The notes below the pieces were generated by a model, which saw only the letters and a program-made list of their open reading frames with translations, made no database searches and had not been told where the DNA came from. Positions 51,815 through 57,232 of a stretch of DNA of 64,000 nt are shown here, in pieces. The first letter of the stretch is position 1, and the number at the start of each line of letters is the position of its first letter. Origin of the DNA: Deltaproteobacteria bacterium (GTDB lineage: Bacteria; Chloroflexota; Dehalococcoidia; Dehalococcoidales; BS750m-G39); assembly GCA_030603275.1 (NCBI GenBank), contig JAUVYB010000003.1, positions 1-64,000 on the forward strand, in the 5' to 3' direction. The position numbers and the translations under genes are program-made.

Positions 51815-53223
51815 AAATAGCCCTGCCCAAAGGCCGCCTGCTGGCGGAAACCGCCGCGCGCCTCAAGGAAGCGGGCTGGGGTCTTGATGGCTATAACGCC
51901 TCGGCGCGCCTTTACCGGGTTAAGTCACGGAATTTCCCCCGGCTCTCGGCCAAGATGTTCCACGAACGGGACATCCCCGTACAGGTGGCCATCGGCAACT
52001 ACGACCTGGGCATCTGCGGCTCGGACTGGATTGAGGAGCTTATGGTCAAATACCCCAGCAGCGCCTTAATGAAGGTAGGACTGCTGGGATACGGCCAGAG
52101 CGCCCTGTATGTGGCTGTCAGCCCCGATGAGGGTATATCTACGGTGGAGACGGTGAGGCAAAGGTCTGGCGTTGTCCGTATCGCCAGCGAGTACCCCAAC
52201 CTGGCCGAGCAATTTGCCATCAACCTGCGGTTAAGGCGGTTCGGTGTCTTTCCCCTGTGGGGGGCGGCGGAAGCCTATCCCCCGGAAAGCGCCGATTTAG
52301 CCCTGGTCTGCGGAACTGAAGAGGGGCTGGCTGACTGCGGGCTGGCGCCGATAGCTAAGGTGCTTACTGTCAGCGCCTGCCTGGTCGCCAACCGTAACAG
52401 CTGGGAAGCTAAAGACATGAAAGATGTGGTGGCTTCCATCTATGATAAGGCAGCGGCTCAGGAAGCCGAACCGGAAATTACTCGGGTCTCAGGCCGGCGT
52501 CCCCGCAAATCTAAGCTCTTCCCCCCCGGCGCCGATGGCGATATAATCCGCCTGGCTTTACCCGACGGGCACCAGCAGTCGCCCACTTTTGACCTTTTGA
52601 GCAAAGCGGGCATCGGCCTTGACGATTACCCCTCCCCCACGGGCAACCGCCGCCCCGCCACCGACCTCGCCGGCGTGGCTATCAAGGTCATCCGGCCGCA
52701 GGACATGCCCCTGCAGGTGGCCAGCGGCAACTTTGACCTGGCCGTTACCGGCCGGGACTGGCTGCGTGAGCACCTCTGCCAGTTTCCCACCAGCCCGGTT
52801 AAGGAGCTGCTTGACCTCAGGTCGGGCAGGGTCAGAATCGTGGCGGTGGTGAGTAATGATATGCCGGTGGCCGATGCCTCTGACCTGATAAAGTTCAGCG
52901 CCGGGCGGACGGCGCCGCTAAGGGTGGCTTCGGAGTACATCAATATCGCCGATAAGTATGCCCGGGACAACCACCTCGGCTCGTACCGGGTGGTGCCCAC
53001 CTGGGGAGCCACCGAGGCCTTTCTCCCCGAGGACGCCGACCTGCTCATTGAGAATACCGAGACCGGTGGGACTATAGCCCGTCACAACCTCAAGATTATC
53101 GACACTCTTTTCGAGTCGACCGCCTGCCTCATCGGCAGTAGCCGGAGAGTGGCTAATGCTGTGAAGCGGGGGAAGATAAACGCCATTATCCAGGCTCTGC
53201 AAACGGGGGTGAAGCTAAATTGA
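51811..53223 (+). CDS. hisG: ATP phosphoribosyltransferase: two HisG-like domains in one ORF (start codon unclear; homology begins at codon 51811 ATA)
   Basis: IKIALPKGRLLAETAARLKEAGW upstream of the tracked start at 51955; second copy begins IIRLALPDGHQQSPTFDLLSKAGI; LIENTETGGTIARHNL PRPP-loop-like motif in the second copy. Confidence 0.88.
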   Translation: MKIALPKGRLLAETAARLKEAGWGLDGYNASARLYRVKSRNFPRLSAKMFHERDIPVQVAIGNYDLGICGSDWIEELMVKYPSSALMKVGLLGYGQSALYVAVSPDEGISTVETVRQRSGVVRIASEYPNLAEQFAINLRLRRFGVFPLWGAAEAYPPESADLALVCGTEEGLADCGLAPIAKVLTVSACLVANRNSWEAKDMKDVVASIYDKAAAQEAEPEITRVSGRRPRKSKLFPPGADGDIIRLALPDGHQQSPTFDLLSKAGIGLDDYPSPTGNRRPATDLAGVAIKVIRPQDMPLQVASGNFDLAVTGRDWLREHLCQFPTSPVKELLDLRSGRVRIVAVVSNDMPVADASDLIKFSAGRTAPLRVASEYINIADKYARDNHLGSYRVVPTWGATEAFLPEDADLLIENTETGGTIARHNLKIIDTLFESTACLIGSSRRVANAVKRGKINAIIQALQTGVKLN

Positions 53224-54485
53224 AAATCATTGAAGGTTTCAAGCTGGCAGAAGAGGTATTATCCCGGCGCGCCTCTACCGAGTTCTACGATAATAACCTG
53301 GAGCCAGAGGTCAGGCAGATAATTGACGAGGTGCGCGGCGGTGGAGACGCCGCCCTTTTCGGCTGCACCTTAAAGTTTGACCGGGTAAAGCTCAGCTCGC
53401 TGGAGGTGAGTAAAAAGCAGATAAAGGACGCCTACCGGCAGGTAGATGAGGGGCTAATATCAGCCCTCAAGCTGGCGGCGGACAGGATAGGCGCATTCCA
53501 CCGGAAGCAGAAAGATATGCTGGCTAAACCGCCCTCGGGTCAGCTGATACGCCCGCTGGAGCGTGTCGGTGTCTATGCCCCCGGCGGAACAGCTTCTTAT
53601 CCCTCTACGGTGCTGATGACGGCGGTGCCGGCCAGGGTAGCCGGCGTTAAGGAGGTCATACTGGCCACCCCGCCCCGACCCGACGGCGCCGTTTCTCCGG
53701 TAACACTGGTCGCCGCCGATATCGCCGGCGTTGACCGCGTCTTCTCCATAGGCGGGGCTCAGGCCATCGCCGCCCTCGCCTTCGGCACCGAGTCCGTGCC
53801 CGCGGTGGACAAGATTTGCGGCCCCGGTAATATCTTCGTCGTTCTGGCCAAGAAACTGGTCTACGGCGTGGTGGATATTGACGGCCTTCCCGGCCCCAGC
53901 GAGGTAATCGTCATCGCCGACGGGACGGCTAGCCCTGCCTACTGCGCCGCCGACCTTCTGGCCCAGGCGGAGCACGACCCCCTGGCCTCGGCCATCTTAA
54001 TCACTACCTCAAAGCGCCTGGCTGATGAGGTCAATCAAGAGGTGGAAAAGCAGTTAAAAGGTCTGGAGCGCCGGGCTATCGCCGCCGAATCCCTGCAGAA
54101 ACAGGGGGTAATAGCGGTGGTGGCTGATATTAACCAGGCGATAGAACTGGCCAACCTCTATGCCCCTGAGCACCTCTGCCTGATGGTAAAGGACGCCGAT
54201 GCCCTCGTCGGGCGGCTAACCAATGCCGGCTGTATCGTTACCGGGGAAAGCGCCACGGTGGTGCTGGGCGATTATGTCTTCGGCCCCAGCCACGTGCTGC
54301 CCACCGGGGCTACCGCCCGCTTCGGCTCACCGCTTAATGTGCTTGATTTCGTTAAAATTACCAGCCTGCTCAATGTCGATAAGGCCAGCCTGAAAAAATT
54401 GGGCAAGGCTGCTGCGGCTATCGCCAGGGCGGAGGGTTTCGAGGCTCACGCCCGTGCTGTGGAAAAGAGACTGGAGGCCGATTAG
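53220..54485 (+). CDS. hisD: Histidinol dehydrogenase
   Basis: GVYAPGGTASYPSTVLMTAVPARVAGV; GPGNIFV; GPSEVIVIAD; AEHDPLASAILIT; TTG start overlapping the hisG stop. Confidence 0.96.
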   Translation: MKIIEGFKLAEEVLSRRASTEFYDNNLEPEVRQIIDEVRGGGDAALFGCTLKFDRVKLSSLEVSKKQIKDAYRQVDEGLISALKLAADRIGAFHRKQKDMLAKPPSGQLIRPLERVGVYAPGGTASYPSTVLMTAVPARVAGVKEVILATPPRPDGAVSPVTLVAADIAGVDRVFSIGGAQAIAALAFGTESVPAVDKICGPGNIFVVLAKKLVYGVVDIDGLPGPSEVIVIADGTASPAYCAADLLAQAEHDPLASAILITTSKRLADEVNQEVEKQLKGLERRAIAAESLQKQGVIAVVADINQAIELANLYAPEHLCLMVKDADALVGRLTNAGCIVTGESATVVLGDYVFGPSHVLPTGATARFGSPLNVLDFVKITSLLNVDKASLKKLGKAAAAIARAEGFEAHARAVEKRLEAD

Positions 54486-54494
54486 CAGGCAATA

Positions 54495-54523
54495 TTGACA
54501 AATTATTCTCCTTATGTTAAAGT
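54495..54523 (+). promoter_or_regulatory. Candidate internal promoter for the hisC leader
   Basis: TTGACA-17 bp-TAAAGT. Confidence 0.45.
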
Positions 54524-54545
54524 GAGCCAGATAGGTAAGAGGGAG

Positions 54546-54629
54546 ATGTTAATTTATACTACCGCCCACTACTACTATTATTACTATTACTACGCGTTTA
54601 CCGGGCGCATCGGCACGCTTGGGGGGTAG
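54546..54629 (+). CDS. Tyr-rich leader peptide MLIYTTAHYYYYYYYYAFTGRIGTLGG* (27 aa)
   Basis: ATG after AGAGGGAG; codons 9-16 are eight consecutive Tyr codons (TAC TAC TAT TAT TAC TAT TAC TAC); stop TAG at 54627. Confidence 0.8.
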   Translation: MLIYTTAHYYYYYYYYAFTGRIGTLGG

Positions 54630-54709
54630 TTTAGCGCAGATTTAGAAACTAAGCAGGAACCAAATAAGAAAAACAGAAAAAACCCTCCCAGGCGGAGGGA
54701 ATTTTGTTT
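54601..54709 (+). promoter_or_regulatory. Transcription attenuator: 1:2 hairpin, 2:3 antiterminator, 3:4 terminator
   Basis: 54601-54607 can pair with 54616-54622; CTTGGGGGGT (54618-54627) with ACCCTCCCAG (54682-54691); CCCTCC-CAGGC-GGAGGG (54683-54699) followed by AATTTTGTTT. Confidence 0.78.
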
Positions 54710-54738
54710 ATATAGGACATAGAAAGGGAGATAAAGAG

Positions 54739-55842
54739 ATGTCTAAAGAGGGGATAGTCAAACTGATAAGGCCGGATCTGGTTAATATCACCGGCTATGC
54801 CGCCAGCAAGTCGGTGGAAGAGGTGGCCGCCTCGGCCAGATTTCCGATAAACGGCGTCATCAAGCTGGATGCCAACGAAAATCCGTACGGCTGCTCGCCA
54901 AAGGTAATGGAGGCACTGAGCAAGTATGATTCTTTTAGTGTTTACCCTGACGCTGGCCAGAGGGAGCTCAGGAAATTGCTTGAGGGCTATGTCGGCGTCG
55001 GCGCCGAGCATATTGTCGCCAGCGGCGGCAGTGACCAGATGATAGGCCTTATTATGCAGCTGTTTGTTAGCCCCGGCGACGAGGTGATAAACTGTCCGCC
55101 TACCTTTGATATATTTCGTTTTGCGGTGGTACTGTGCAACGGCAGGCTGGTTGAGGTGCCCAGGGATGAAAACTACAATGTAGATGTAGCTGCGGTCAAG
55201 AAGGCGATAACCAAAAAGACCAAGCTGATACTGCTGGTCAACCCCAATAACCCCACCGGCACCCCCACTCCCCAGAAGGATATACTGGAGTTACTGGATA
55301 CCGGCGTGCCCGTGCTGGCCGACGAGGCTTACGTTGAGTTCAGCGGTGAGACCGTTACCCCGCTGGTCACCCGGTACGATAACCTGATGGTGCTCAGGAC
55401 ATTCAGCAAGTGGGCGGGCCTGGCCAGTTTCAGGATTGGCTATGGTATCTTCACTCCCGAGATTGCTAATTACATATTAAATATAAAGATGCCCTACAGC
55501 GTAAGCGCCGCTTCCCAGATTGCGGTGAGGGAGTCCCTGAAGGACCGTGACTTTTTGATGGAGAGGGTAAAGGCTATAGTCGCCGAAAGAGACCGGCTCT
55601 TTGAAGAGCTCAAAAAGATAGAGTGGCTAAAACCCTTCCCTTCAAAAGCCAACTTCATCTTCTGCCACGTTCTGAACGGCACGGCCAGGCAGATATATGA
55701 AGGGTTGCTGGACAGGAGTATATTAATCCGCTATGCCGGCAATCACCTGCTGAAGGACGCTATTCGCATTGGCGTGGGCAAACCGGAGCATACCGACATC
55801 CTGATTAAGGCAATCAGGGAGATAGAGGCAGAGAGAGCTTAG
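54739..55842 (+). CDS. hisC: Histidinol-phosphate (possibly also aromatic) aminotransferase
   Basis: KLDANENPYGCSPKVMEAL; LVNPNNPTGT; DEAYVEFSGE; FSKWAGLASFRIGYGI. Confidence 0.93.
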   Translation: MSKEGIVKLIRPDLVNITGYAASKSVEEVAASARFPINGVIKLDANENPYGCSPKVMEALSKYDSFSVYPDAGQRELRKLLEGYVGVGAEHIVASGGSDQMIGLIMQLFVSPGDEVINCPPTFDIFRFAVVLCNGRLVEVPRDENYNVDVAAVKKAITKKTKLILLVNPNNPTGTPTPQKDILELLDTGVPVLADEAYVEFSGETVTPLVTRYDNLMVLRTFSKWAGLASFRIGYGIFTPEIANYILNIKMPYSVSAASQIAVRESLKDRDFLMERVKAIVAERDRLFEELKKIEWLKPFPSKANFIFCHVLNGTARQIYEGLLDRSILIRYAGNHLLKDAIRIGVGKPEHTDILIKAIREIEAERA

Positions 55843-56153: not shown

Positions 56154-56182
56154 TTGACAAGCTATTAAGTGATGTATATAAT
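56154..56182 (+). promoter_or_regulatory. Consensus sigma70 promoter P1 of hth-hisB
   Basis: TTGACA (56154-56159), 17-bp spacer, TATAAT (56177-56182). Confidence 0.8.
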
Positions 56183-56184
56183 AA

Positions 56185-56199
56185 TTAACAGACTGTTAA
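56185..56199. promoter_or_regulatory. Candidate operator O1, perfect dyad TTAACAG-A-CTGTTAA
   Basis: 15-bp perfect palindrome centred 10 bp downstream of the P1 -10; core AACA-N3-TGTT. Confidence 0.7.
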
Positions 56200-56271
56200 T
56201 AATAAACAACGTAATATTAACTATAGACAACAATATTACCTTAGGTTACGATAGTTATGTATCATGTGCGC

Positions 56272-56300
56272 TTGACAAACTGTGAAGAATGGTATATAAT
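56272..56300 (+). promoter_or_regulatory. Consensus sigma70 promoter P2 of hth-hisB
   Basis: TTGACA (56272-56277), 17-bp spacer, TATAAT (56295-56300). Confidence 0.8.
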
Positions 56301-56413: not shown

Positions 56414-57232
56414 ATGAAATCGGTTGATGAACTAGTAGTAGATAAGGCTAAGGAAATACAAGAGAGTAACAGATACTCTGACCCGGAGATGGCAAAGTTA
56501 ATTGGGTGTAATAGAACGACTTACAACCTGATTAAAAACAGGAGGAAGCCGGTCGGTGCTATTTTCTACAGAGGCATACTTGCGTTTTTGGAGAATAATG
56601 GCAACGGATTATTTACTCTAAAAGGCGAAGGGAATAATAATGGAGGAAGATCTCGTAATATCCCTCGGAAAACTAAGGAAACGGATATTAACCTGGAGCT
56701 AAACATTGATGGTAGTGGCAAATATGATATAAACACCAACGGTATAAAGATGTTTGACCACCTCCTCTCCCAGACGGCCAAGCACGGCCGGTTTGACCTT
56801 GTAGTTAAGGCTACCGGTGATGATGAACACCACCTGATAGAGGATGTCGCCATCTGCCTGGGAAAGGCGCTGGTCGAGGCGTTGGGGGACAAGCGCGGCA
56901 TTGTCCGAATGGGCGATGCCACTGTGGCTATGGATGATGCTCTGGCTATGGTGGCGGTGGATATCAGCGGCCGGGGATATGCAGTGTTAGAACTTCCTTT
57001 TAGCGGTAACGACATGGCAGGCTTTCCCACCGACCTCATCCGTCATTTCCTAGAGACTTTTGCCATTGAAGCTAGGCTTAACCTTTATGCTAAGGTTTTG
57101 AATGGTACTAATGACCATCACAAGGCGGAGGCTCTTTTTAAAGCCCTGGGCAGAGCATTGGATATGGCCACCAGCCTGGATAAGCGTATTTCCGGTGAGC
57201 TTCCCAGCACCAAGGGTCGTCTGGAGGAATAG
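56414..57232 (+). CDS. hisB: Imidazoleglycerol-phosphate dehydratase with N-terminal phage-type HTH extension
   Basis: N-terminal [28 protein letters not shown] (HTH); from about residue 83 [35 protein letters not shown]...[14 protein letters not shown]...[15 protein letters not shown]...PSTKG. Confidence 0.9.

Follow-up and report, generated by a model that had tools for sequence, protein, structure and literature searches.

In the enteric pheA, pheST, his and trp attenuators, a short leader ORF with runs of cognate codons is combined with strands that form competing pairings (1:2, 2:3 and 3:4) and with an intrinsic terminator. In gamma-proteobacteria, Phe leaders precede pheST (PMC1262725). 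Leader peptides have been listed for Proteobacteria and Actinobacteria, together with a Firmicutes case of the same paper's own (PMC2965389); Chloroflexota is absent from the phyla given there. Genes of histidine biosynthesis are controlled through codon sensing or tRNA, by His-codon attenuators and T-boxes, and a T-box has been described before a lone hisC in Natranaerobius (PMC9413887). T-boxes also regulate Tyr genes (PMC1262725). The uORFC-13-1 motif combines an upstream ORF containing a Phe codon with an adjacent terminator; its description covers Acholeplasma and environmental sequences alone, with aroF as the sole downstream gene (PMC8632094).

The leader compared here lies between hisD and hisC in a 64,000-nucleotide stretch of DNA (the window) from the genome G000. 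It shares all of the enteric features named above, and the family to which it belongs has Phe leaders before pheST, as gamma-proteobacteria do. The probable mechanism is classical leader-peptide attenuation. Unlike in the enteric attenuators, Tyr codons are the main signal, an outer helix encloses the codon run, and one homologous, sequence-conserved core is reused before many operons. Unlike the his-operon attenuators and T-boxes, the element carries Tyr and Phe codons and would affect only hisC and the genes co-transcribed with it. A Tyr T-box would share its signal, the charging of tRNA-Tyr, and its terminator output, but the hisC element would need a translated ORF and has no Rfam match in the window. 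Like uORFC-13-1, the family places an upstream ORF that contains a Phe codon, next to a terminator, before DAHP synthase; by its description that motif belongs to a different taxon, and hisC, pheST and transport operons are not among its reported targets. At the gathering score, no Rfam family was found in the window or the family (best match 17.1 bits against 55), permissive thresholds gave nothing relevant, and the Rfam search returned no T-box covariance match. The open-access literature searched gave no earlier description of this family, and none of a leader with a Tyr run or of attenuators in Dehalococcoides. No paper there named tyrosine codons with attenuation, and none linked Dehalococcoides to amino acid genes under leader-peptide attenuation, the one match concerning Bacillus efflux; a Tyr-run leader before hisC was not known to the initial annotation either.

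Table 1. Features of the hisD–hisC region, in window coordinates.
Feature	Position	Strand	Evidence
hisD	53220-54485		PF00815
Leader promoter, TTGACA-N17-TAAAGT, TG before the -10 box	54495-54523	+	promoter scan
Purine-rich, Shine-Dalgarno-like AGGTAAGAGGGAG directly 5' of the leader ATG	54533-54545	+	sequence; weak, very short spacing
Leader ORF, 27 codons, MLIYTTAHYYYYYYYYAFTGRIGTLGG*	54546-54629	+	translation; homologous leaders in relatives
Strand 1a of the outer 1:2 helix (partner 54620-54630), Tyr codons inside	54558-54568	+	
His codon ahead of the Tyr run	54567-54569	+	kept in 10/10 hisC leaders
Control codons, eight consecutive Tyr codons	54570-54593	+	translation
Near-invariant UUU (Phe) codon just 5' of strand 1b	54597-54599	+	comparison of leaders
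Strand 1b, inner hairpin with 54616-54622	54601-54607	+	covariation, folding
Strand 2, partner of 1a/1b or of strand 3	54616-54630	+	covariation
Strand 3, in antiterminator 2:3 or terminator 3:4	54682-54693	+	covariation
Strand 4, which forms the intrinsic terminator hairpin together with 54683-54688	54694-54699	+	terminator scan, covariation
U-rich terminator tract AATTTTGTTTAT	54700-54711	+	sequence
hisC, histidinol-phosphate aminotransferase, controlled gene	54739-55842	+	TIGR01141, 314.8 bits (cutoff 276.55)

The initial annotation, whose range begins with the promoter, had placed the ORF, its eight Tyr codons, the strands, the terminator and hisC exactly where we find them, and its 1:2, 2:3 and 3:4 pairings match the sequence letter for letter. 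The leader ORF is short, looks translated, follows a promoter of its own and carries a cluster of codons for a single amino acid or for two related ones. The outer helix around the Tyr run, a feature that annotation had not reported, pairs ACUACC/CCCA of strand 1a with UGGG/GGUAGU of strand 2. The antiterminator joins 54617-54627 to 54682-54693, and the terminator scan flagged 54683-54699, which by sequence criteria is a terminator hairpin just 5' of the structural gene. The poor Shine-Dalgarno spacing at the leader start counts against the reading. So does the position of the leader ORF in many relatives (L007, L008 and L009 among them), where no more than 8-14 nt separate its start from the -10 box and the leader mRNA would be nearly leaderless. 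Reading the TAC/TAT run in a Leu or Thr/Ile frame was rejected: those frames have no ATG, GTG or TTG start between the preceding stop and the run.

A BLAST search of the leader against its own genome revealed a second copy, likewise missing from the initial annotation, at G000:C21:36299-36418. It is 78% identical over the core and has the same promoter hexamers with a Phe-codon leader, MLNQAVLSGFTSFVFTGRTRCAWGAAYSKI. This copy heads an operon of CaiB/BaiF-type CoA-transferase with two 2-hydroxyacyl-CoA dehydratase-like subunits, two activases, a GlcD-like oxidase and an Fe-S subunit. DNA searches located the element before hisC or CoA-transferase in 8 of the 11 genomes of the GTDB family. A covariance model (R1) built from 13 cores comprising strands 1-4 matched 118 genomes out of 156, and 64 genera out of 85, in the order, Dehalococcoidales according to the relatives' record titles, and a broader model (R2) matched 67 of 393 genomes in a sample of the class, 24 of them outside the order. 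An independent exact-pattern scan of the genomes of 84,980 species returned 21 stretches titled Dehalococcoidales, Dehalococcoidia or Chloroflexi, and four (L185, L191, L199 and L200) from two MAGs titled Deltaproteobacteria, bin.571 and CSMAG_2238. These MAGs were placed in the window's genus, and their record titles look wrong. Of the 116 family copies, 106 have a promoter of the same type close 5' of the leader start, among them all ten hisC copies. In a tree of the 120-nt cores, drawn for duplication versus inheritance, the classes were interleaved. One match, in G010 (E 0.2), was rejected, having no convincing leader or aromatic gene.

The gene downstream of the 116 copies within the order is almost always related to aromatic amino acids. 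The targets comprised AMP-forming acyl-CoA ligase (43), DAHP synthase (42), hisC (10), CoA-transferase (7) and pheS-pheT (3), names without a family match being our reading of the sequences; the remaining few were an aldolase-aroB operon and opine-dehydrogenase-like, metallo-beta-lactamase-like, AAA ATPase and molybdopterin-enzyme genes. The element is not confined to hisC: its family serves many aromatic operons and, with its codons exchanged, stands before most of the Phe/Tyr-related operons that the search recovered. Acyl-CoA ligase copies are followed by LivH/LivM-like permeases wherever enough DNA is present, and DAHP synthase copies by aroB, aroD and aroE (aroF-B-D-E). The closed 1,469,720-bp genome G026 contains both arrangements: aroF-B-D-E-K-A-C-pheA-tyrA follows a Tyr leader, and the acyl-CoA ligase operon, which also includes Liv-type transporter genes and a PaaK-like ligase, follows a leader of the Tyr/Phe kind. 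Outside the order, copies precede two types of DAHP synthase and the ligase operon. In another order of the class, a copy with the same core (L176, 3801-3915, minus strand) has an Ile/Leu/Val leader, MDTTARIVSRGLILSILIIVRTSSALGRLAG (LILSILIIV), before ilvB-ilvN-ilvC. A second attenuator copy was also observed within the CoA-transferase operon region of L014 (26-151) and L047 (2177-2308), giving two switches in one cluster; in L047 it precedes a metallo-beta-lactamase-fold gene.

The single-sequence folding energy of the window's leader was ordinary (z -0.20 against shuffles), and the case consequently rests on comparison. Here the comparison with related genomes that the initial annotation had called for upheld the attenuator layout: the ORF, the Tyr-rich codons and the terminator/antiterminator pairing are kept, and the helices covary. 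The inner 1:2 and 3:4 helices were 94% paired, with 10 of 13 pairs changed on both sides and 92 double-change cells, and none of 500 shuffles reached any of these measures, in an alignment that had been fitted to those helices. The antiterminator 2:3, which lay outside the model, was 93.5% paired with 21 double-change cells; 0 of 500 shuffles matched it in double-change count or percent paired, and sliding the strands lowered pairing to 63-74%, the statistics for all helices being inflated by related sequences. In L105 and L109 a three-way covariation, GCUUGAGAGG : CCCUCUCAAGC : AGAGGG, matches one substitution across strands 2, 3 and 4, a pattern that pairing of strand 3 with each of the other two would produce, and close forms occur in L034, L075 and L083. 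The mutually exclusive pairings 1:2, 2:3 and 3:4 are thus conserved by covariation. The outer helix joins early leader codons to the end of strand 2, with the control codons enclosed. Own pairs were stronger than swapped ones before hisC (-21.8 vs -15.1 kcal/mol), pheS (-22.1 vs -13.3) and DAHP synthase (-18.0 vs -15.2), and also in CoA-transferase copies; in the ligase class the outer helix is weak, own pairs hardly exceed swapped ones, and the Phe codons lie right beside strand 1b.

Codon usage in the leaders followed the leader frame and the downstream gene. In the leader frame, 35% of the codons at the ten positions preceding UUU encode Phe or Tyr, whereas the other frames reach 5% and 10% (n=116, Wilcoxon p<1e-16, for sequences that are not independent). 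The UUU frame had no interrupting stop in 116/116 copies. Tyr and Phe codons numbered 201 and 54 before DAHP synthase, hisC and aldolase, versus 35 and 90 before acyl-CoA ligase, CoA-transferase and pheS (Fisher 1e-21, inflated by related sequences). Leaders are Tyr-rich before DAHP synthase/shikimate genes and hisC, Phe-rich before pheST and the ligase/Liv operons, and mixed Phe/Tyr before CoA-transferase/dehydratase operons. Codon identity agrees with the operon product where Phe leaders precede pheST, Tyr/Phe leaders the shikimate genes, and the Ile/Leu/Val leader ilvBNC; for hisC itself we infer such a match. Between G000 and G008, of the same genus, the eight-Tyr runs differ at four third positions and in no amino acid.

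On this comparative footing, the hisC leader is in all likelihood a ribosome-mediated attenuator that senses charged tRNA-Tyr, and tRNA-Phe through the UUU codon, as one copy of an aromatic-regulon family. Control of hisC by Tyr-tRNA, as originally claimed, is supported in that a Tyr-codon attenuator layout is conserved before hisC, but the near-invariant UUU, which adjoins strand 1b, indicates that the sensing is probably of Tyr plus Phe and not of Tyr alone. The switch very probably turns hisC on when tyrosine or phenylalanine is short; we infer the ribosome stalling and the direction of the response from the anatomy and the comparison. RNA polymerase would start at the leader promoter, and a ribosome would follow on the leader ORF. 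With both amino acids ample, the ribosome would reach the stop codon and cover strand 2, 3:4 would form, and transcription would end before hisC. With either short, the ribosome would wait in the codon run and the outer 1a:2 helix would be broken; on the last codons it would also cover strand 1b, allowing strand 2 to pair with strand 3 and hisC to be transcribed. Copies of the family would differ mainly by the codons preceding the core.

We modelled the ribosome states by equilibrium folding of only the RNA downstream of the ribosome. When RNA polymerase stands between strands 2 and 3 and no ribosome is present, strand 2 is held by the outer helix (0.91). This helix is lost once a ribosome occupies the Tyr run, and a ribosome at Tyr8 or UUU removes the inner hairpin as well. 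In the full-length RNA, 3:4 stays dominant when the ribosome stalls anywhere from Tyr1 to Tyr7, and 2:3 can compete only if the stall is at Tyr8 or the Phe codon; once the polymerase has just cleared strand 3, 2:3 is favoured whether or not a ribosome is there. In this folding with and without a ribosome, proposed earlier as a check, the stop-codon state gave 3:4 at 1.00 and stalls at Tyr8 or Phe freed strand 2, but earlier Tyr stalls did not do so at equilibrium. As the states are not cleanly resolved at equilibrium, the gate must work by timing, an ambiguity that weakens the mechanistic detail and not the layout.

The aromatic gene content of G000 bears on why hisC would be a target. Its aro genes lie solely inside a trp operon, trpD-C-F-aroF-B-Q-A-K-E-C-trpB-A (contig C21, L215/L216; names by sequence reading). 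The prephenate dehydratase (PDT) domain was not found in any of the 11 family genomes, nor prephenate dehydrogenase (TyrA) in G000 (93% complete), with positive controls recovered in 14/14 reference genomes. In G000 we found only three class I/II aminotransferases, namely a DapL-type enzyme, a PRK07682-like enzyme and HisC, and it carries IorA and IorB beside the CoA-transferase operon. A Tyr/Phe switch, the lack of PDT and TyrA and this set of three fit HisC as an arylpyruvate transaminase, and the link to Tyr/Phe supply drawn in the initial annotation accords with the gene content to that extent. HisC probably supplies arylpyruvate transamination to Tyr and Phe besides its step in the His pathway. 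IorAB near the CoA-transferase/2-hydroxyacyl-CoA dehydratase operon hints at a non-prephenate route to Phe and Tyr, which would run from aryl acids through arylpyruvates with HisC as the transaminase. More tentatively, and as a possibility that we would not call probable, one ancestral core may have been copied before many operons of the order (and thinly in the class) and re-targeted by codon exchange to Tyr, Phe, Tyr plus Phe and once Ile/Leu/Val, forming an RNA-only aromatic regulon. The copy at hisC would act as a His-or-Tyr gate controlling a bifunctional transaminase, and the window's family would use the core to govern the non-prephenate Phe/Tyr route from aryl acids (CoA-transferase, 2-hydroxyacyl-CoA dehydratase, IorAB and HisC).

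Whether histidine also enters the switch depends on the His codon that adjoins the Tyr codons on their 5' side or precedes them by a few codons, and which is present in 10/10 hisC leaders versus 5/42 DAHP synthase leaders (Fisher 2e-7, lineages not independent). A stall at this codon would break the outer helix too, and in folding it does so as a Tyr1 stall does, which makes histidine control possible and leaves the claim that hisC is decoupled from histidine unproven. The hisC leader could then be a dual-input OR gate in which a His or a Tyr/Phe stall opens the outer helix, matching a bifunctional HisC. A lone His codon is nevertheless a weak sensor, and in the His-stall state the inner hairpin keeps part of strand 2; moreover, the ten hisC loci span two GTDB families but nine come from one, so that shared descent may explain the codon. 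We regard the OR gate as somewhat unlikely. An unlikely alternative, rated a little lower, is that HisC is a histidine enzyme only and that Tyr control is an evolutionary leftover or a general growth control. The protein passes the histidinol-phosphate transaminase cutoff, its gene sits in the his cluster, and the PRK07682-like aminotransferase could serve Tyr/Phe. Tyr-rich leaders are nonetheless kept before hisC in two families, and with PDT and TyrA not found as above, arylpyruvate transamination is the only evident last step.

The remaining rivals concern the leader as such. Recurrence of FTGR-like residues in the leaders of different operons would suit a nascent-peptide arrest in which a conserved FTGR segment stalls the ribosome on a small molecule, without codon starvation. 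The segment varies, however (FTRR, FTKR, FPGR, FTWR, FSER, FSGR), it coincides with strand 1b, which covaries with strand 2, and the amino acid composition of the leaders tracks the operon's amino acid, making arrest very improbable. Less probable still is a neutral TAC/TAT repeat expansion next to a plain terminator of hisD transcripts. The eight-codon run is confined to two genomes of the genus and is shorter elsewhere before hisC, and a terminator alone would end hisD transcripts. Yet a conserved promoter and ORF precede the run, the 2:3 pairing covaries, most relatives lacking a long run keep YYY or YY leaders, and the same element heads unlinked operons; the comparative data largely refute this explanation.

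Attenuation by a Tyr/Phe leader, as preferred here, would extend classical codon sensing to Chloroflexota, where an entire regulon would share one recognisable RNA core, in a poorly studied order and apparently including the lineage of the organohalide-respiring Dehalococcoides. Since the leader codons reveal which amino acid is concerned, the family can be used to annotate operons of unknown function. From it one would predict a role in Phe/Tyr supply for the acyl-CoA ligase/Liv-transport and CoA-transferase/dehydratase operons, as well as action of HisC on arylpyruvates, and it offers natural comparisons of codon-specificity swaps on a constant RNA core.

Two further observations were made downstream in the his cluster. 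The gap between hisC and hisB contains, at 56154-56300, two perfect TTGACA-N17-TATAAT promoters within an AT-rich, repeat-like stretch. The HisB ORF (56414-57232) has about 105 extra N-terminal residues, its Pfam IGPD domain match starting at residue 110.
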